NCBI RefSeq assembly: GCF_003024925.1
Contig: NZ_PUED01000008.1
Location: 1 to 34,637 of the forward strand
Direction: 5' to 3'
Length of the DNA: 34,637 nt
Origin: Paramuribaculum intestinale
GTDB taxonomy: Bacteria > Bacteroidota > Bacteroidia > Bacteroidales > Muribaculaceae
The notes below the pieces were generated by a model. That model did no database searches and was not told the origin of the DNA. It saw nothing but the letters and a program-made list of their open reading frames with translations. Positions 3,887-10,944 of the stretch are shown one piece after another (the stretch's first letter is position 1; the number at the start of each line of letters is the position of its first letter). Both the position numbers and the translations under genes were made by a program.

Positions 3887-5155
3887 ATGAAACGTCAGGA
3901 TTTTGAAATAATGGCGCCCGTGGGTTCCTATGAGTCGCTTCAGGCGGCCATCAGGGCCGGAGCCGACGCCGTCTACTTCGGAGTGGAGGGGCTCAACATG
4001 CGTTCGCGGTCGAGCGCCAATTTCACTCTCGACGATCTCCGCCGCATAGCATCGCTCTGCTCTCATGCGGGGGTGAAGACATATCTTACCGTCAACACTA
4101 TCATCTACGACGACGACATACCGCTGCTCCACGATATTGTCGACGCTGCGGCCCAGGCGGGCATCTCGGCCATAATTGCGGCCGATCCGGCGGCCATATC
4201 CTGCGCCCGGAGCAAGGGCGTGGAGGTGCATATCTCCACGCAGGCCAATATTTCCAACATCGAGGCGGTGGAGATGTATGCGCAGTGGGCCGACGTTGTC
4301 GTTCTCGCCCGTGAACTGTCGCTCGACCGCGTGGAGGCCATCTACCGCGAGATCTGCTCGCGACCTGTGCTCGGCCCGTCGGGCAAGCCGGTGCGTATCG
4401 AGATGTTCTGCCACGGGGCGCTCTGCATGGCTGTCAGCGGCAAGTGCTACCTGAGCCTGCATGAGATGAATTCGTCGGCCAACCGGGGGGCATGCACCCA
4501 GATATGCCGCCGGTCATACACGGTCACCGACCGCGAGACAGGCGACCAGCTCGACATCGAAAACCAGTATATCATGTCGCCCAAGGATCTGTGTACGATC
4601 GGCTTTCTCGACCGTCTGGCCGATGCGGGCGTGAGGGTGCTGAAAATCGAGGGACGCGCCCGCGGACCCGAATACGTGGCCACCGTGGTCAGTGCCTACG
4701 ACCGCGCGCTGCGCGCGCTGTGCGGCGAGGGAGTCTACGACCGGACGCTGGTCGACTCTCTGACAGCCGATCTCCGCAAGGTGTTCAACCGCGATTTCTG
4801 GGACGGCTATTATCTCGGCCGGCGTCTGGGAGAGTGGTCGGGCAAGTATGGTTCGTCGGCCACGCGTGTCAAGCATTATGCGGCCAAGGCGGTGAAGTGG
4901 TTCCCGCGCATCGGTGTAGGGGAGTTCATAATGGAGGCAGGCGAGCTGTGTGTCGGCGACGAGATCGTCATCACCGGGCCTGCCACGGGAGCGCTGATCA
5001 CCACCGTGAGCGAGATCCGCGTCGATCTCCGGCCGGTCGATAAAACGGTCAAGGGAGAGGCATTCTCCATCCCTCTCCCTTCCCGTGTCAGGCCTTCCGA
5101 CCGTCTGTATGTATGGCGTCAAACCGCTATGGCTGCGGCCAGCGGCGAAAAGTGA
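3887..5155 (+). CDS. trhP: U32-family protein, probable tRNA U34 hydroxylation protein TrhP (YegQ-like)
   Basis: Members of peptidase family U32 are now known mostly as oxygen-independent hydroxylation enzymes. TrhP makes 5-hydroxyuridine at the tRNA wobble position, RlhA acts on 23S rRNA and UbiU/UbiV act in quinone synthesis. This 422-residue protein has the U32 start EIMAPVGSYESLQAAIRAGADAVYFG (residues 7-32, a TIM-barrel strand and loop). It also has the family Cys cluster: C180 (HGALC), C187 (SGKC), C203 (RGAC) and C207 (TQIC), which fits the 4Fe-4S ligands. Length and the C-terminal beta-barrel-like part (GVGEFIMEAGELCVGDEIVITGP) suit TrhP better than the shorter UbiU/UbiV, though RlhA-type activity cannot be excluded. 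Probably cotranscribed with the nitroreductase. The next gene converges 16 bp away, with no visible terminator between. Confidence 0.85.
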   Translation: MKRQDFEIMAPVGSYESLQAAIRAGADAVYFGVEGLNMRSRSSANFTLDDLRRIASLCSHAGVKTYLTVNTIIYDDDIPLLHDIVDAAAQAGISAIIAADPAAISCARSKGVEVHISTQANISNIEAVEMYAQWADVVVLARELSLDRVEAIYREICSRPVLGPSGKPVRIEMFCHGALCMAVSGKCYLSLHEMNSSANRGACTQICRRSYTVTDRETGDQLDIENQYIMSPKDLCTIGFLDRLADAGVRVLKIEGRARGPEYVATVVSAYDRALRALCGEGVYDRTLVDSLTADLRKVFNRDFWDGYYLGRRLGEWSGKYGSSATRVKHYAAKAVKWFPRIGVGEFIMEAGELCVGDEIVITGPATGALITTVSEIRVDLRPVDKTVKGEAFSIPLPSRVRPSDRLYVWRQTAMAAASGEK

Positions 5156-5171
5156 CACCTGTCGATATCCG

Positions 5172-5612
5172 TCAGTATATCCGCCCTGCGATCACTGCCG
5201 CACGCTCTTTCCCTGCGGAGGCTGCGCGCTCAAGCATGGCGAGCATGACCGATTCGCTCGCCTCGGCCGACTGTGTGTAGCAGGCGGCCATCTCCGGATC
5301 GCTGCCTGCATATAGCCCGGCCAGTGTCCGGCGGCCGGCGGCGTGCGTGATCAGGCGTGCGGTCAGTCCGCGTTCGGCGTCGCTGAGCGACTCGGGAGTG
5401 TCTATGGCTATGATCTCTCCGTCGTCGGATACCACGGTGATGTATGGCGCCGCACTGGCTGCGGTCTGTGCTGCCGCAGCTCTCGCCGTCACGGCCAGCG
5501 CCTCGCGGTTGTCGGGGGTGAGCAGTCCGGGAGTTGATCGGCCAAGGCGTCTTCTGAGGGCGTTGTCGGCCAGTATTTCCGATATGATTGCGTCTATTGA
5601 GATTCCTGTCAT
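5172..5612 (-). CDS. Uncharacterised Ala-rich protein at the end of the phage-head-like block
   Basis: A 146-residue soluble protein I do not recognise, with an ATG start at 5612. It opens with a helix-rich segment (SIDAIISEILADNALRRRLG), then an Ala-rich stretch around residues 42-56. A short predicted beta segment follows (APYITVVSDDGEIIAIDTPESL), then a long helical C-terminal half. No signal peptide or membrane segment. It is the last gene of the minus-strand block, 48 bp behind the 145-residue basic protein and read in the same direction, so it is probably in the same transcript. Gene order suggests a virion-related origin such as a connector, but nothing in the sequence proves this. It ends 16 bp from the convergent U32 gene. 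Confidence 0.6.
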   Translation of the reverse strand: MTGISIDAIISEILADNALRRRLGRSTPGLLTPDNREALAVTARAAAAQTAASAAPYITVVSDDGEIIAIDTPESLSDAERGLTARLITHAAGRRTLAGLYAGSDPEMAACYTQSAEASESVMLAMLERAASAGKERAAVIAGRIY

Positions 5613-5660
5613 TGTCTGGGGGCTTAATTGTTTCTGGAGCTGTTGGTGATGTGTTCTCTG

Positions 5661-6098
5661 TCAGGTGATCGGTTCTGTGCGTCGCAGGGAGCGTCGCCGC
5701 TGTCTTATCCGCTGATATAGCCTCAGGGCGGTCGATGGCTCGATGAAGAAGCCCGATGCGCCTCCGGCAAGCACGTGGGCAAGCGCTTCGCCGCGCCCTA
5801 TTCCGCGTTTCTGTTGCAGCAGAGCCACTTTGCGCTCGATCTCTTCGCGGCGGCTCGCGGTCGACGGATGTTCGCGACGTCGGCGACGGGAGCTGACCGT
5901 CGGCCGGTGAAGATGGCGCATGGCTTGTTCATGGCTTAGATAATACGACGGCGCCGGCATCCGCGAGGCCTTCATGGCTATCTCGGCGGCTGTGAGCGAG
6001 CCGCCGCGGGCCGACTCCACCACCGTGCGGCAGGCGGCTATGAAGTCGCGGTCGCGCGGCGATAGAGTCTGATCCTTGGGTCGGTGTGTGGTTGGCAT
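5661..6098 (-). CDS. Small basic uncharacterised protein, possibly nucleic-acid binding
   Basis: A 145-residue protein, ATG start at 6098, rich in Arg clusters (SSRRRRREH near 70-78, SRREEIERK, and a C-terminus RIRQRRRSLRRTEP). The N-terminal third (LSPRDRDFIAACRTVV, then LTAAEIAMKASRMPAPSYYLSHEQAMRHL) reads like a helix-turn-helix-sized helical domain. The high basic charge suggests DNA or RNA binding. In a phage head cluster a protein of this size could be a small terminase subunit, but I see no specific motif for that. It has its own promoter core at 6155-6162 and is separated from the portal-like gene by 147 bp, so it may be controlled independently of the capsid-like genes. Confidence 0.6.
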   Translation of the reverse strand: MPTTHRPKDQTLSPRDRDFIAACRTVVESARGGSLTAAEIAMKASRMPAPSYYLSHEQAMRHLHRPTVSSRRRRREHPSTASRREEIERKVALLQQKRGIGRGEALAHVLAGGASGFFIEPSTALRLYQRIRQRRRSLRRTEPIT

Positions 6099-6154
6099 AG
6101 TCTTGAACGTGTGAAAAAGGTGTAAAGGGTGTGTGGTTGTGATGTCGGGTGATG

Positions 6155-6162
6155 CAAAGTTA
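6155..6162 (-). promoter_or_regulatory. -7 promoter element upstream of the basic-protein gene
   Basis: The minus strand reads TAACTTTG, matching TAnnTTTG, 57 bp before the ATG at 6098. A start site near 6148 would give a leader of about 50 nt. It lies inside the 147-bp gap after the portal-like gene, which holds no other recognisable feature. Confidence 0.55.
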
Positions 6163-6245
6163 CGTCACGGCATGGGCGATAATCCGACACTACCGTGTTA
6201 AAACAGATAAATAAGTGTAGCCGATGTGATGTTTTTTCTTGCTTG

Positions 6246-7712
6246 TCAGGCGTAGGTCTCTGTTCTTGTTTCGCTTTGTATGCCGTCGATGAGGCGGTTG
6301 CGCGAGTCGACAAATGTAGCGAATGCCTCTATCAGGTCTATCAGTGCGGTGGTGGCGTTTCGTGTGCGGGCGTCGTAGAGGGCGGCCGAAGTGTTGCCGG
6401 TGGTGTCGCGTCCCTGCAGCGAGCTGTTCACTCCCGAGATCTGTTCGAGCATCGAGGTCTGGATCTGTAGCATCTGTTGGGCGCCGCAGTCGCCCGACGT
6501 GGTGAGCTGCCGTGGTTCCGACGAGCGTTCCGACGGTTTGAAGGGCACTATGGCGCCGGGTCGGCTCCACAGATCGGCCAGATCGGCCCAGCTGAGGTCG
6601 GACGGAAGCCGGTCGGTGGGGAAGAGCAGCACCCCCTTGGCCGATACGCTCATGATCTTTTCCATCAGCGTGATCATGCGGTTGATGATGCGTTGCTGAT
6701 CCACTACATCCTCCACAAAGGAGTGGATCTCGCCGTCGGTCAGCGGATACATCTTTATGGCGAACGGATGCCGCCCGTGCGGCCACGGGGAGTCGTATTC
6801 GGCCATGACCGTGCCGTCGGGGGCTATCCACCGGCAGTGCCACCGCAGGGTGTCGCAGCGCTTCCAGCTGATGGGTCGGTGTGTGTTGTTCGGTTTGGTA
6901 GCGGTGCGGTGTGATTTGCGGCGGCGGTTTATGCGACGGAGTTTGGCTTCCTCCTCCGGATCTACTGCAAACGCCGACCCGCTCTCCGGGTCATAGCAGC
7001 GTGTGATGCTGCGTGTTTCGAGTGTCCATAGCTCCACGGCTCTGCACCGGCCGGGCGATGAGGGGCGCATCATCTCCTCTATGGCTTCGGAACTGTAGCC
7101 GGTGTCGCTTCGGCCAGCTCGGTTTATGTCAGGGTTTAGATATATCCGCTCTATTGCACGGCGTCGGGCGGTGTCGTGGCGTCCGAGTCTGACGGTCAGC
7201 TCCCGAAGGCTCATCTCGTGGATCATCCCTGCTACCTCTATGTCGGCGCCGCGCGGATCGAGGTAGCGGTTGACGAAGAAGCGTTCGGGACTGACATTGT
7301 CCACCCACACCCCCTCGCCGTCGAGCCGTTTCTCCGCCACCACGCGCTGCACCGCGCATCCCGATATCAGGAATTCTTCAAGCATTCTCGCATCCATTTC
7401 GCGCAGGCTGTTGCGGCGGGCTGTCGTGGCGTCGGTGCCGCAGTCATTCTGGCAGAAGTCACGCCGGTAAAGTCCCACTACGCTTTTCACGAGCTGCCTT
7501 ATGAGATTGTTTGTCATCGGTCGTTCGCCTCCGTTTCCGGCTGCCTCGCCTTCGCTGACGGTCAGCCCCGACGGGAGTCTGACCGGATCCGACCACTGGT
7601 CGCCGTAGGTGTAGCGTTTCAGCCGCCGGCGCTGTTCGCGCAGCGTGCTTCCGGCCATCCATGCCGTCGCAGCGAGTTTCAGTGCGTTTTCGTCGTTATG
7701 CATTGTCATCAT
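6246..7712 (-). CDS. Phage portal-like protein (P22/podovirus type)
   Basis: A 488-residue soluble protein that resembles phage portal proteins, the dodecameric ring through which DNA enters a capsid. It opens with a helix and RRRLKRYTYGDQW (about 27-39), a usual portal start. NNLIRQLVKSVVGLYRRD (about 68-85) has the pattern of the conserved N-x-hydrophobic-V-x-V-G segment. A central wing-like part contains WIAPDGTVMAEYDSPWPHGRHPFAIKMYP. Then comes FVEDVVDQQRIINRMITLMEKIMSVSAKG, the long stem helix, and a C-terminal helix QISGVNSSLQGRDTTGNTSAALYDARTRN. This order fits the P22-like portal family by eye. Three ATGs (7712, 7709, 7703) are possible starts. It begins 3 bp behind the preceding gene, so it is translated from the capsid transcript. 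The frame is intact with no internal stop. Confidence 0.62.
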   Translation of the reverse strand: MMTMHNDENALKLAATAWMAGSTLREQRRRLKRYTYGDQWSDPVRLPSGLTVSEGEAAGNGGERPMTNNLIRQLVKSVVGLYRRDFCQNDCGTDATTARRNSLREMDARMLEEFLISGCAVQRVVAEKRLDGEGVWVDNVSPERFFVNRYLDPRGADIEVAGMIHEMSLRELTVRLGRHDTARRRAIERIYLNPDINRAGRSDTGYSSEAIEEMMRPSSPGRCRAVELWTLETRSITRCYDPESGSAFAVDPEEEAKLRRINRRRKSHRTATKPNNTHRPISWKRCDTLRWHCRWIAPDGTVMAEYDSPWPHGRHPFAIKMYPLTDGEIHSFVEDVVDQQRIINRMITLMEKIMSVSAKGVLLFPTDRLPSDLSWADLADLWSRPGAIVPFKPSERSSEPRQLTTSGDCGAQQMLQIQTSMLEQISGVNSSLQGRDTTGNTSAALYDARTRNATTALIDLIEAFATFVDSRNRLIDGIQSETRTETYA

Positions 7713-7715
7713 TTT

Positions 7716-8279
7716 TTAATTACAACATTCGGCGAGAGAGTGGAGCATGGCCGCGGTGAGCAGATATTCTCCGTCGGGTGGCATCACTACGGCCGTTATA
7801 CGCTCGGCCGCGGGTCTGTCGCCGTCATAATCGCCATATAGGGTCAGATGCCCTCCGCCGTGATCCACGGCCACCGGTCGGCATCGCCCGGCGCGGCCGT
7901 AGGGGTTGCCTTGGTCGGCGGCCGCCTCGCTCTCCGGAGTGGTCATGAGTGCGTCGGCTCTCCATCCGCGCAGCCTCACGGTGGCGGCTCTTATGGCGCG
8001 TGCCGGCATATACAGGTCGCAGCTCGAATGGTCGTCGGCGCGTGCGGCGAGTGTGGCCGTGGTCGTGCAGTCGGTAAGCGGCAGATCAGCCGCGTCGGCG
8101 TCGGTCATCATCTCTTCGTAGCGCATCCGCAATGTGGTTCGAAGCCATTGGTCGGCCACCGGGGCGTCCTCGCGCGTTATCTCGGTCTCTCCGTCTGCGT
8201 CGCCCGAAGGCTCCATGCAGCGCGCGAGTCTCACGCGCTGCAGGAGTTCATCTTCGGTCAGTCTGATCGTGACTGCCAT
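7716..8279 (-). CDS. Uncharacterised protein between capsid-like and portal-like genes
   Basis: A 187-residue acidic protein, ATG start at 8279, lying 3 bp after the capsid-like stop and 3 bp before the portal-like start; the tight packing shows one operon. Its N-terminal half is helical and charged (LTEDELLQRVRLARC, then a segment rich in Asp/Glu), and the C-terminal half has beta-rich parts (HLTLYGDYDGDRPAAERITAVVMP) ending in a Cys pair just before the stop. No signal peptide or membrane helix. A head-tail adaptor or connector function would suit the position and size, but this is inference from gene order only. Confidence 0.6.
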   Translation of the reverse strand: MAVTIRLTEDELLQRVRLARCMEPSGDADGETEITREDAPVADQWLRTTLRMRYEEMMTDADAADLPLTDCTTTATLAARADDHSSCDLYMPARAIRAATVRLRGWRADALMTTPESEAAADQGNPYGRAGRCRPVAVDHGGGHLTLYGDYDGDRPAAERITAVVMPPDGEYLLTAAMLHSLAECCN

Positions 8280-8282
8280 AGG

Positions 8283-9548
8283 TCAGACGCTGCGGGTCAC
8301 TCTGACGTGCGACTTCGGATGGCGCAGAGCCAGACAACTCGCTTCGGTGGCTACCACGGCTTCGGTGTTGCGCTGTCCCGATTTGCGCAGGTCGAGGCGC
8401 TCCACCTTGAAGGGTACGTGCACGTACTTCACCAGATACTCGGGGTCGATCACCAGGCCGTCGTACTCATGGCCGCACTGGTCGAACACTTCGGCATGGA
8501 TCACGTAGAGCGAGCCGAACTTCGAGCGTATCTCCGAGAAGTCTATCCCCCAGTGGGTCACCTTGTCGGAGGCCTGCGCCACGCGGGTGTAGCTGATCTT
8601 GTTGAGGAGGGCTGTCAGTTCGCTTCCGGCCAGCAGCACTTTGCGTCCCGAGCCGGCGTTGGTGCCTGTGAACGCGCTCTTCATCAGGTCTATCAGAGTA
8701 TTCTCGTTGATGGTCGTATAGCTGAAGTCGCTTCCGGCCTGGTTCCAGATGCCGCCGGTGAAGAGCACTTCGTCGGAGCGCAGCGGGTCGGTCACTCTGG
8801 CTTTGGTGCCGAATAGGAAGCTTTTCTCCATGCCCAGCCGCATGTCCATGATCGCTACCTCCTCCTGGTCGCTGAAAGTCCACCCGGTTTCCTTGGCGCT
8901 CTGGCGGGCGAGAATGCTCTGTTCCACTTGAGCCTTAAATATTTGACAGTAGTTTCGGGCTTTGCGCGGAAGGGCTTCGAACTGAGGCGTCTGCACATCG
9001 AGCTCGGCTGCGGCGCGTCCCATTCTGACGAGGGTCTTGCCGTTGATCTCTTCGTCGGTTTCGCCGCTCTCTCCGGCGTTGACGGCTATCACGTGAAGTC
9101 CCTGACCGCCTTCGCCGCGCCCCACCACGTAGAGCACCAGCGCCGGAGCCGCTTCGCCGGAGCTGTCGGCCACACCCTTGGCACCCATCACCATTATAGT
9201 GTCGGTCGGGGCGAAGATGTTGTCGTTGTCGGTAGCTATCTCATACACCGTGCGGCCGCTGCCGTGCTGGTCGTTGAGCGCTTTCAGGTCGCCTATGCCG
9301 CGGGCGCTCTGGGCCTTGGTGTCGACCGAATAGTAGTCGACCACCATCGACGCGGCGCGGCGGGCGCCTATCATGCGCGAGATCTGGTCGACAGGAGTGG
9401 CCATCGGTCTGACGCGCGCCACGCGGCTGTCTACGTCGTTGCGAAGCAGATCGCCCGAGACTTCGCGGATGTTCACGGTGGTCAGCGGGCCGTCGGCCAC
9501 GTGGGTGCCTCCGGCCATGCCGTCGGCTTTCACAGAAATTTCTCCCAT
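8283..9548 (-). CDS. Major-capsid-like protein (SU10/DUF5309 type, HK97 fold)
   Basis: A 421-residue protein whose pattern fits SU10-type (DUF5309) HK97-fold major capsid proteins. A central helix segment NYCQIFKAQVEQSILARQSA is followed by a spine helix DQEEVAIMDMRLGMEKSFLFG. Next come RSDEVLFTGGIWNQAG and a domain with LLAGSELTALLNKI, then SEIRSKFGSLYVIHAEVFDQ. The C-terminal strand run YDGLVIDPEYLVKYVHVPFKVERLDLRKSGQ followed by EAVVATEASCLALRHPKSHVRV is the most telling part. In phages such proteins form the icosahedral shell; here the assembly state is unknown. It is the second gene of the block after the scaffold-like gene (73 bp gap) and is read through to the portal-like gene. An alternative is an encapsulin-like shell protein, but the adjoining portal-like gene argues for phage origin. 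Confidence 0.62.
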   Translation of the reverse strand: MGEISVKADGMAGGTHVADGPLTTVNIREVSGDLLRNDVDSRVARVRPMATPVDQISRMIGARRAASMVVDYYSVDTKAQSARGIGDLKALNDQHGSGRTVYEIATDNDNIFAPTDTIMVMGAKGVADSSGEAAPALVLYVVGRGEGGQGLHVIAVNAGESGETDEEINGKTLVRMGRAAAELDVQTPQFEALPRKARNYCQIFKAQVEQSILARQSAKETGWTFSDQEEVAIMDMRLGMEKSFLFGTKARVTDPLRSDEVLFTGGIWNQAGSDFSYTTINENTLIDLMKSAFTGTNAGSGRKVLLAGSELTALLNKISYTRVAQASDKVTHWGIDFSEIRSKFGSLYVIHAEVFDQCGHEYDGLVIDPEYLVKYVHVPFKVERLDLRKSGQRNTEAVVATEASCLALRHPKSHVRVTRSV

Positions 9549-9621
9549 AATTGTTCTTGGATTTAGTCGTATTATTAAATAGGTGTGTTTTGTTTTTGGC
9601 AGAGATCGTGATGCCGTCAGG

Positions 9622-10008
9622 TCAGTCCCATGCCGTAGGTCGTATGCGGGTCAGGAATTCGTTGTCAATCTCCAGTCGGCTCTGTCGCTCCTCCTCGGCG
9701 TCGGTCAGATGACGGTCCTCCCACATCGAGCGGTGGCTCCGGTGCTGTAGCTGTTTTCTCTCCTCCTCGGCTCCCTCACGGCGTCCGCGTTCATATCCCT
9801 TGCTCTCGGCCTCGGCTATCATCCTTACCACCTCGGCGAGTTTCATGTCGCCGGTCGTCGGTGTGGCCTCTGTGCCCGGTGCGACTCCGTCAGCCTCGGG
9901 TGGAGTGCTGTCGGCGGGCGGATTCTCGTTGTCGGTTGGTTGCGGTTCTGTCAGCTGCAGGCTCTCCCCTGTGGCCTTGGCCTGTTCTTCGGTCTGTTCT
10001 TCTTTCAT
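9622..10008 (-). CDS. Acidic scaffold-like protein, first gene of the phage-head-like block
   Basis: A 128-residue hydrophilic protein. The first 55 residues are disordered and rich in Glu, Pro and Thr. A charged helix follows (MKLAEVVRMIAEAE, then KGYERGRREGAEEER, about residues 55-85), and a short C-terminus ends FLTRIRPTAWD. An acidic disordered arm plus a coiled helix, placed directly before a capsid gene, is what scaffolding proteins look like, but the class is poorly conserved in sequence. I chose ATG 10008: the frame extends to a TTG at 10044, but that lies too close to the -7 promoter core at 10047-10054 to be in the transcript. Transcription from there would give a leader of about 30 nt. 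Confidence 0.55.
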   Translation of the reverse strand: MKEEQTEEQAKATGESLQLTEPQPTDNENPPADSTPPEADGVAPGTEATPTTGDMKLAEVVRMIAEAESKGYERGRREGAEEERKQLQHRSHRSMWEDRHLTDAEEERQSRLEIDNEFLTRIRPTAWD

Positions 10009-10046
10009 AGTCGTTCGTGGTGTTGTGTTGTTATGCGTTGACAATG

Positions 10047-10137: not shown

Positions 10138-10944
10138 TCACGGAAGCTCCGGGATCACCTGCTTCACCTCCTTGAACCAATACTCCCGCCCGTTGTCGAG
10201 TATCAGCCGCCCGGTGCGTTCCACCCGGGCTATGCCGGCTCTGAACACTTCGCCGCTCGCCGCATCCTCCCACAGATGCCGGCCCTCGCGGCGCCACAGC
10301 CTCGCGGCGTAGCTCCGCTCTATCTCGTCGGCACCGGCAGGGAGCATGGCCGTCAGCCGCGCCACGCGCTCCACCAGAAGCCGGGCTGTTGCGGCCGTAT
10401 CATACTCCTCCCCTGTGAGCTGACGCATGCTCACCGGATTGGGGGCATCGCTCCGCCACACGCTCTGATTTACATTAAGCCCTATTCCGGCTATGGCGCG
10501 GCTTATGCGTCCGCCCTCGAGTCCGCATTCTATCAGTATGCCCGCTATCTTCTGTTGGCCGACGTAGATGTCGTTGGGCCACTTCACTTCGGCCTGAACC
10601 CCTGTCAGCTCGGCGACCACACCGGCCGTGGCTATCGCCACAGCTTCCGACACCATGAACTGCTCGCGGGCCTCAACACCCTCCGGACGCAGCATCACCG
10701 ACAGTGTCACGTTCTGTCCCGCCTCGCTCTCCCAGCTGTTGCCGCGCTGTCCGCGTCCGGCAGTCTGGCGCCGCGCCATGATGGCGTAGCCGTGGGGCAG
10801 CGCTTCGCGGCGGTCGGTCTCGGTCATGACGCTGTTGGTCGAGCCGGCCTCGTCCATGATGGTCAGCAGTGCCTGATGTGTGCTGTCGCCGGCGGACGGG
10901 CCGGCGCTTTGAGCGCTCTTTGCGTGTCGGTATGATTCGTGCAT
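10138..10944 (-). CDS. birA: Biotin--[acetyl-CoA-carboxylase] ligase
   Basis: Activates biotin to biotinyl-AMP and attaches it to the carrier lysine of acetyl-CoA carboxylase and other biotin enzymes. The 268-residue protein has the class motifs GSTN (34-37), GRGQRG (63-68, the biotinyl-AMP loop), KWPND (121-125) and QQKIAGILIE (131-139) with the active-site lysine. It ends with a small C-terminal beta domain (RTGRLILDNGREYWF). There is no N-terminal winged-helix domain, so this is a catalytic-only enzyme, not the E. coli-type repressor. The N-terminus before GSTN is about 33 residues, longer than usual. Met30 could be the true start, but a promoter core 32 bp ahead of ATG 10944 supports the longer form. 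Confidence 0.93.
   Translation of the reverse strand: MHESYRHAKSAQSAGPSAGDSTHQALLTIMDEAGSTNSVMTETDRREALPHGYAIMARRQTAGRGQRGNSWESEAGQNVTLSVMLRPEGVEAREQFMVSEAVAIATAGVVAELTGVQAEVKWPNDIYVGQQKIAGILIECGLEGGRISRAIAGIGLNVNQSVWRSDAPNPVSMRQLTGEEYDTAATARLLVERVARLTAMLPAGADEIERSYAARLWRREGRHLWEDAASGEVFRAGIARVERTGRLILDNGREYWFKEVKQVIPELP

Follow-up and report, generated by a model that had tools for sequence, protein, structure and literature searches.

A phage-derived head and packaging gene set of Muribaculaceae genomes, probably maintained as a gene transfer agent

We analyzed a 34,637-nucleotide stretch of DNA from Paramuribaculum intestinale (contig NZ_PUED01000008.1, positions 1 to 34,637, here called the window), in which six minus-strand genes at positions 5172 to 10008 form a block of phage-head-like genes. 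The block is part of a phage-derived gene set that is mostly intact, is under purifying selection, is inherited largely with the host, and occupies one to three loci, with no other part of a phage genome recognizable. We read the block as the head locus of a short-tailed (SU10/BKO1-TP3-like) phage that was domesticated long ago and today acts as a gene transfer agent (GTA), a reading to which we assign a probability of roughly 0.7, and we consider it very probable that the set encodes a DNA-packaging particle which is domesticated and serves the host in some way. The six genes are called A to F (E, capsid; C, portal; D, adaptor-like; F, scaffold-like), the gene for the large terminase (TerL) is called T, and that for its partner of about 800 residues N.

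Head and packaging genes across the family

The capsid gene E is present in 265 of 297 family genomes, in most as a single copy, with C found in 277, T in 275, and N in 261, counts that include prophage matches such as those in G184; among the 204 genomes with a completeness of 90% or more and a contamination of 5% or less, the corresponding numbers are 188 for E, 194 for C, 194 for T, and 185 for N. An earlier note on this DNA, made from the sequence without database searches, had named occurrence in a single strain beside a full prophage as a finding that would refute its reading; with the capsid gene in 265 genomes, the block is not a local prophage fragment. A prophage would form a single contiguous unit that carries genes for integration and replication and has a patchy distribution, and this set is present in most family genomes.

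The earlier note had named E as an SU10-type capsid and C as a portal, and both identifications held in profile searches. E matched Pfam SU10_MCP (PF17236) at 4.7e-52 (177.7 bits against a curated cut-off of 24.1), PHROG 26635 at 4.7e-82, and a PHROG major head protein family at 5.5e-12, and an E profile of 13 relatives matched the VP1 capsid chain 9in6 of the PDB at 4e-11. C matched Pfam P22_portal at 1e-20 and the portal family PHROG 156 at 4e-38, and its profile matched the PDB portal 8jov at 1.3e-6; the protein is without about 120 residues found near the C-terminus of phage portals. D, previously listed as unknown, has a predicted fold (predicted local distance difference test score, pLDDT, 93) like the portal-tail adaptors of short-tailed phages and is kept as a family in 54 loci; its profile gave no match among PDB sequences. 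The description of F as scaffold-like agrees with its place before the capsid gene and with a weak profile similarity to the phage protein that precedes the capsid. The F family occurs in 53 Muribaculaceae-type loci and matched 14 phage loci weakly, at 6e-5 or worse, and the longer F of sister families matched 33 open reading frames (ORFs) of phages, the best at 9e-45, and 19 of Muribaculaceae, the best at 3e-11. The B family matched ORFs in 33 of 36 phage loci and lies near the terminase gene in L106 and L109; PHROG 27246 was found in 19 of 27 aligned members, the copy in the window not being among them. B is a candidate for the small terminase solely because some phages have it close to their terminase gene. 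The A family recurs in 26 loci, and a comparison of its profile with four proteins of phages and sister families gave an E value of 1.7e-5 and a probability of 78%.

The large terminase was recognized from a few relatives in which a gene close to that of the portal, with a product of 600-odd residues, belongs to that family. In the genome of the window T lies on a separate contig, C368, after a 747-residue N and between aroB and a hexapeptide-transferase gene; it matched a PHROG terminase family at 5.5e-17, and the TerL profile matched T4 gp17 at 7e-13. All 25 of the full-length host TerLs (at least 580 residues) keep R and Q of Walker A, the HLSE glutamate, and D, E, and DD of the nuclease. 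N was present in 18 of 21 TerL loci read with their flanks, a hand-picked sample consisting of the own genome and 20 others, and stands side by side with T in 15. No integration or replication genes were recognized by eye beside the block or beside the N-T pair in the own genome, and no separate search for integrases was made.

The only family match of N was PHROG 32516 (8 of 17 members), and one sister-family N weakly matched a PHROG tail appendage (0.0017). By eye N is a candidate tail nozzle, a protein which in T7 (gp12) and P22 (gp10) has a beta-propeller nozzle fold. A structure model from five sequences had a pLDDT of 29.8, too low for use, PDB profile searches gave no useful match, and viral scans with two host N proteins found no relative. 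We also observed that gp51 of phage BKO1-TP3 (L175:15820-17934), which its record lists as a tail spike protein, scores 2.8e-208 against the large-terminase profile.

There is one gene set in many ARRANGEMENTS, as a single cluster, at two loci (the window's genome), or at three loci (G173). The whole set of eight (N, T, F, E, D, C, B, and A) is collinear on one strand within about 10.5 kb in L195, E-D-C-N-T form a single run in L083, with a T of only 319 residues, and in G173, a single contig of 3.34 Mb, T lies at 0.94 Mb, the portal gene at 1.36 Mb, and the capsid gene at 1.89 Mb. Among the 55 such capsid loci whose downstream sequence extended for 4.5 kb or more, 15 contained F-E-D-C-B-A, 14 F-E-D-C, 14 E alone, and 12 other combinations. 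Three genomes (G130, G104, and G006) of genus g7, which is probably Duncaniella, carry the portal gene together with D, B, and A on 14- to 16-kb stretches that have no capsid gene. A capsid-only shell, suggested by the capsid gene standing alone in Duncaniella-type loci, was dropped because these genomes hold the portal gene, D, B, and A at that other locus.

Several further observations concern single genes of the set. A split portal, suggested by two matches per genome in some genera, proved mostly to be one frame with a stretch of about 40 residues missing. The portal at L032:13163-14547 (G267) is read as two overlapping, different frames, either decaying or truly split, and G052, G184, and G220 have shorter separate portal frames as well. 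Three stretches of G184 (G184:C1 853473-854749, 1156838-1161171, and 2069573-2074070) hold dispersed portal and N-TerL loci and, separately, a prophage-type portal-TerL pair. Directly after the portal gene in three loci (L082:13221-13598, L090:13188-13568, and L095:13254-13625) there is a small gene of lipoprotein type, which has a relative in the prophage-type L108 and possibly encodes a spanin. By a simple hydropathy cut, a hydrophobic, signal-anchor-like N-terminus was counted in all 9 capsids of the sister families, in 20 of the 25 from phages, and in 18 of the 80 from Muribaculaceae; copies noted for this segment are those of L254-L261, L103, L203, L054, L072, L069, L206, and L266 and of the phage loci L112 and L130-L134, and the capsid in the window begins without it. 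Such N-termini perhaps reflect membrane-linked assembly.

Inheritance, selection, and the block in the window

The gene trees were compared with that of RpoB in 12 genomes (14 were tried, and two without an RpoB match were dropped). The capsid tree shared 7 of 9 splits with the RpoB tree and the TerL tree 6 of 9, the random mean being near 0.2 and the random maxima 3 and 2, respectively. The path-length correlation of TerL with RpoB was 0.71, a value reached in 0 of 5000 permutations. In larger trees, a single branch with a support of 1.0 parts the host copies from those of the sampled phages for capsids (89 host copies), TerLs (32), and portals (60) alike. The phage set, here and in the counts of matching phage loci and ORFs for the gene families, leaves out L111, which has a host-like capsid, and L103 was counted with the sister families in these larger trees; closer phages may exist because the sampled phages were those found with the capsid of the window. 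For TerL and the portal, the Muribaculaceae and sister-family copies form separate clades.

The ratio of nonsynonymous to synonymous substitution rates (dN/dS), obtained by our own counting and with high dS for several genes, was calculated between the genome of the window and its nearest relative. The values were 0.11 for E, 0.11 for T, 0.16 for C, 0.25 to 0.27 for A, B, D, and F, and 0.32 for N, and the same comparison gave 0.09 for the U32 gene, 0.12 for a nitroreductase gene, and 0.24 for birA. The proposal that the block is a domesticated, lineage-wide capsid module under selection is thus supported by its prevalence, the RpoB-like trees, the split between host and phage copies, and the host-like dN/dS.

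Within the window (Table 1), every frame of the six genes is open as the earlier note had described, and its account of the spacing was also accurate: the U32 gene lies 16 bp away and birA 129 bp, and the D/E and C/D junctions each measure 3 bp; the remaining three junctions inside the block measure 48, 147, and 73 bp. The composition resembles that of the neighbors, the GC content at third codon positions being 0.68 to 0.79 in the six block genes and 0.72 to 0.77 in three flanking host genes. Because F, E, D, and C recur in the same order in tens of relatives, the block is no chance arrangement. Its placement between birA and the U32 gene is real in the window but across the lineage is limited to close relatives. 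L031 (same genus, 89% identical) has the full placement, birA and the U32 gene adjoin the block in L032 in differing orientations, birA stays nearby in several other close relatives, and more distant relatives differ; a fixed position of the block between these two genes was dropped accordingly.

Table 1. Genes of the block and its host flanks in the window
Feature	Positions	Strand	Length and basis
F, scaffold-like protein	9622..10008	-	128 aa from ATG; in-frame TTG start at 10044 possible
E, major capsid protein, SU10 type	8283..9548	-	421 aa; Pfam, PHROG, PDB profile
D, head-to-tail adaptor-like protein	7716..8279	-	187 aa; predicted fold
C, portal protein	6246..7712	-	488 aa; Pfam, PHROG, PDB profile
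B, basic protein	5661..6098	-	145 aa; two similar PAPxYYxS-type motifs
A, Ala-rich protein	5172..5612	-	146 aa; family recurrence
birA (biotin-protein ligase), host flank	10138..10944	-	NCBIfam birA_ligase 1.8e-36
U32 peptidase-family gene, host flank, convergent	3887..5155	+	Pfam Peptidase_U32 3.4e-63

Sister families and the delivery parts

Across the order, the capsid was found in 33 of 393 genomes, six of which belong to this family and 25 to six other families, the other two having low identity (30 and 37%). The main copies in these six sister families (f22, f28, f60, f68, f88, and f109) showed a capsid identity of 46 to 52%. In the eight sister-family loci that were read, a longer scaffold gene precedes the capsid gene, which is followed in varying order by D (8 of 8), X128 (a small head gene also found in phages; 7), and a fibre-like gene (7). 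A fumarase-like gene adjoins six of the eight loci, and its start is readable in a seventh (Pfam was checked on one); a holin-like gene is present in two loci and an M15 endolysin gene in one. TerL was found in 8 of 8 sister-family genomes tested, and in four of the sister loci read its gene has two or three further conserved genes (c8, c14, and c16) next to it or in back-to-back orientation. The portal gene and N are divergent neighbors in two sister loci, and in one the gene for ribosomal protein L21 lies between those for TerL and the portal. On the basis of these surroundings, the sister-family genes are chromosomal and no prophage. The c8, c14, and c16 genes that adjoin the terminase gene were seen in L276, L282, L283, and L284, with c16 encoding 574 to 864 residues; the members tested gave no Pfam or PHROG match and had no homologue in the phage loci examined, and the three are candidates for internal or ejection proteins.

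The Muribaculaceae proteins are shorter. The median portal has 468 residues versus 646 in three sister copies and 670 in phages, mostly because some 120 residues near the C-terminus are gone, and the median scaffold has 117 residues versus about 255 in the sister families. A profile of the sister-type fibre found nothing in 37 family genomes and one match in 24 others (the one that had supplied the query row), and X128, c8, c9, c14, and c16 had no homologue in the Muribaculaceae loci examined. Since none of these was found, the Muribaculaceae form may lack delivery parts.

The alternative that survives best, although we consider it unlikely, is a packaging head that makes no delivery, in which DNA-filled heads would have lost their fibre and ejection parts and would serve in DNA export or disposal at lysis or in interference with kin or phages. 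The absent fibre, X128, c8, c14, and c16 and the shortened scaffold and portal all favor such a head, but the adaptor-like D is kept in its 54 loci and N in 261 of the 297 genomes, fast-changing fibres are easily missed, and an M15 endolysin gene lies directly upstream of the portal gene in G173. It is very improbable that the set belongs to a satellite of the type of capsid-forming phage-inducible chromosomal islands (cf-PICI-like), making its own heads and borrowing the tails of a helper phage. Head and packaging genes without recognized fibre genes would suit a satellite, but no mobile unit was seen, the genes are dispersed among host genes and largely follow the host tree, and the fumarase gene stands beside six, perhaps seven, of the eight sister-family loci.

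The gene transfer agent reading

Encapsulin-type nanocompartments consist of a shell protein and its cargo, enzymes rather than DNA, and have no portal or terminase. The earlier note had offered a nanocompartment as one possible product of the block. An HK97-type capsid family is indeed kept here as a host gene, and at 16 of the 55 capsid loci it is without D or C, but most genomes retain a portal together with a terminase that looks active from its sequence (the 277 and 275 of 297 genomes given above, prophages included), and the portal at a capsid-less locus in G130, G104, G006, and G173 belongs to genomes that do carry the capsid. Because the portal, the adaptor-like protein, and an intact-motif terminase, usually at a separate locus, are kept, a DNA-packaging particle is far more likely than a nanocompartment, which we give only a slight chance. 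Of the earlier interpretation, the domesticated module under selection stands and the nanocompartment does not, and the block is only part of the system. A relic of a single ancient prophage that is decaying and has persisted by chance would account for the genomes without one locus or with stops but is scarcely credible, as frames are open in nearly all copies listed at about 50 to 60% protein identity, dN/dS is near host-gene values, and the catalytic TerL residues are kept in all 25 copies.

We return to the gene transfer agent. According to PMC9662315, the criteria for GTAs include caudoviricete-derived particle proteins, a fully endogenised genome often spread over several loci, and mostly vertical inheritance, and further the packaging of mostly random host DNA, a whole own genome that is not packageable, and delivery to other cells. 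The genomic features on this list are found here, and on that account we file the set as GTA-like. Caudoviricete derivation is seen, from the genes alone, in the similarity of capsid, portal, and TerL and in the predicted fold of D. The genes are endogenised at two contigs in the own genome, at three loci in G173, and beside fumarase and ribosomal-protein genes in the sister families, and loci as far apart as those of G173 could hardly be packaged in one piece. Inheritance is mostly vertical, as indicated by the RpoB agreement in the 12 genomes and by the split between host and phage copies, the agreement between capsid and TerL being weaker.

Packaging, release, and transfer by the particle might proceed as follows. 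In some cells and under some condition, F would guide E into a procapsid on the portal C. T, perhaps with B as the small terminase, would then cut and package a headful of whatever host DNA it met. D, and perhaps N, would close the portal and form a stub tail, and the cell would lyse, after which the particle may deliver host DNA to kin.

A number of results weigh against this reading. The missing fibre, X128, and c-type genes described above, N, in which no fold was recognized, and the prophage matches within the prevalence counts are among its weak points. The capsid and TerL trees agree modestly, sharing 4 of 9 splits, which equals the maximum of 1000 random relabellings, the path-length correlation of the capsid with RpoB is weak (r 0.38, with 39 of 5000 permutations as high), and the capsid does not separate Muribaculaceae from sister-family copies. 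A few near-complete genomes are without one locus, namely, G005 and G104 (99%), with capsid and portal but no T or N, and G038 (99%) and G091 (98%), with T and N but no capsid or portal. Among the copies listed, in-frame stops occur in one capsid (G135), in portals of G015, G023, G041, G057, and G127, in TerLs of G042, G077, and G141, and in N of G075, G270, and G284. In genus g30 many of the capsid matches listed are weak (about 1e-5 to 1e-14), with G030, G069, G100, and others having weak prophage-like matches only and G050, G086, and G113 full-scoring ones; part of this genus has perhaps lost the system.

Among known phages, SU10, P22, and GP4 are short-tailed and share the SU10-type capsid, the P22-type portal, and the adaptor-like fold, but they are free viruses, and their similarity to the host set is distant. 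The Bacteroides phages BKO1-TP3, BF1-TP2, and BS-TP4 and related IMG/VR contigs hold, as a group, homologues of E, C, D, B, T, and N and, weakly, of F and A. Unlike the dispersed host set, the three phages have genomes of 64 to 68 kb; BKO1-TP3 has many extra genes, including one for a DarB-like giant protein and one for a protein of 2,639 residues, and its portal gene is upstream of the capsid gene. Among GTAs, RcGTA probably has a phage ancestor different from that of the present system. The RcGTA-like GTAs of Alphaproteobacteria have caudoviricete-derived genes, several loci, and vertical inheritance in common with it but belong to another phylum, and their function was shown experimentally (PMC9662315). 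The nearest described case is the FpGTA of Faecalibacterium, a GTA candidate (Borodovich et al. 2026, PMC12946183), which has a 10.5-kb operon for TerL, portal, scaffold, and capsid and more structural genes and lysis genes at a second locus, with particles, about 9 kb of packaged DNA, and proteomics shown. Likened by description, FpGTA resembles the present system in coming from a gut bacterium, in its short-tailed-phage-like proteins, and in its two loci. It differs in being confined to one genus of Bacillota and in that particles were seen there, whereas here we have the genes only.

Within the paper collection covered, our literature search found no report of a GTA or a domesticated capsid in Muribaculaceae and no paper joining DUF5309 with Bacteroides-type names. 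PMC9662315, in the portion available, describes no GTA in Bacteroidota, and PMC12946183, likewise available in part, treats GTAs in Bacillota and lateral transduction in Bacteroides, with no mention of Muribaculaceae in that main text.

We give about even odds to a broader account, in which one ancient domestication predates the split of at least seven Bacteroidales families, the sister families retain a full GTA with fibre-like and lysis genes, and the Muribaculaceae have pared it to about eight scattered genes, a new minimal GTA that would provide a standing route of gene flow in a dominant mouse-gut family. The capsid gene is also present in the isolate genomes of Duncaniella muris DSM 103720 and Heminiphilus faecis AM35, and the proposal is therefore directly testable. 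If it is true, a dominant gut family and its neighbors have carried a host-controlled DNA-packaging particle since before these families split, which would bear on gene exchange among gut Bacteroidales and on the interpretation of bacterial DNA found in faecal virus fractions.

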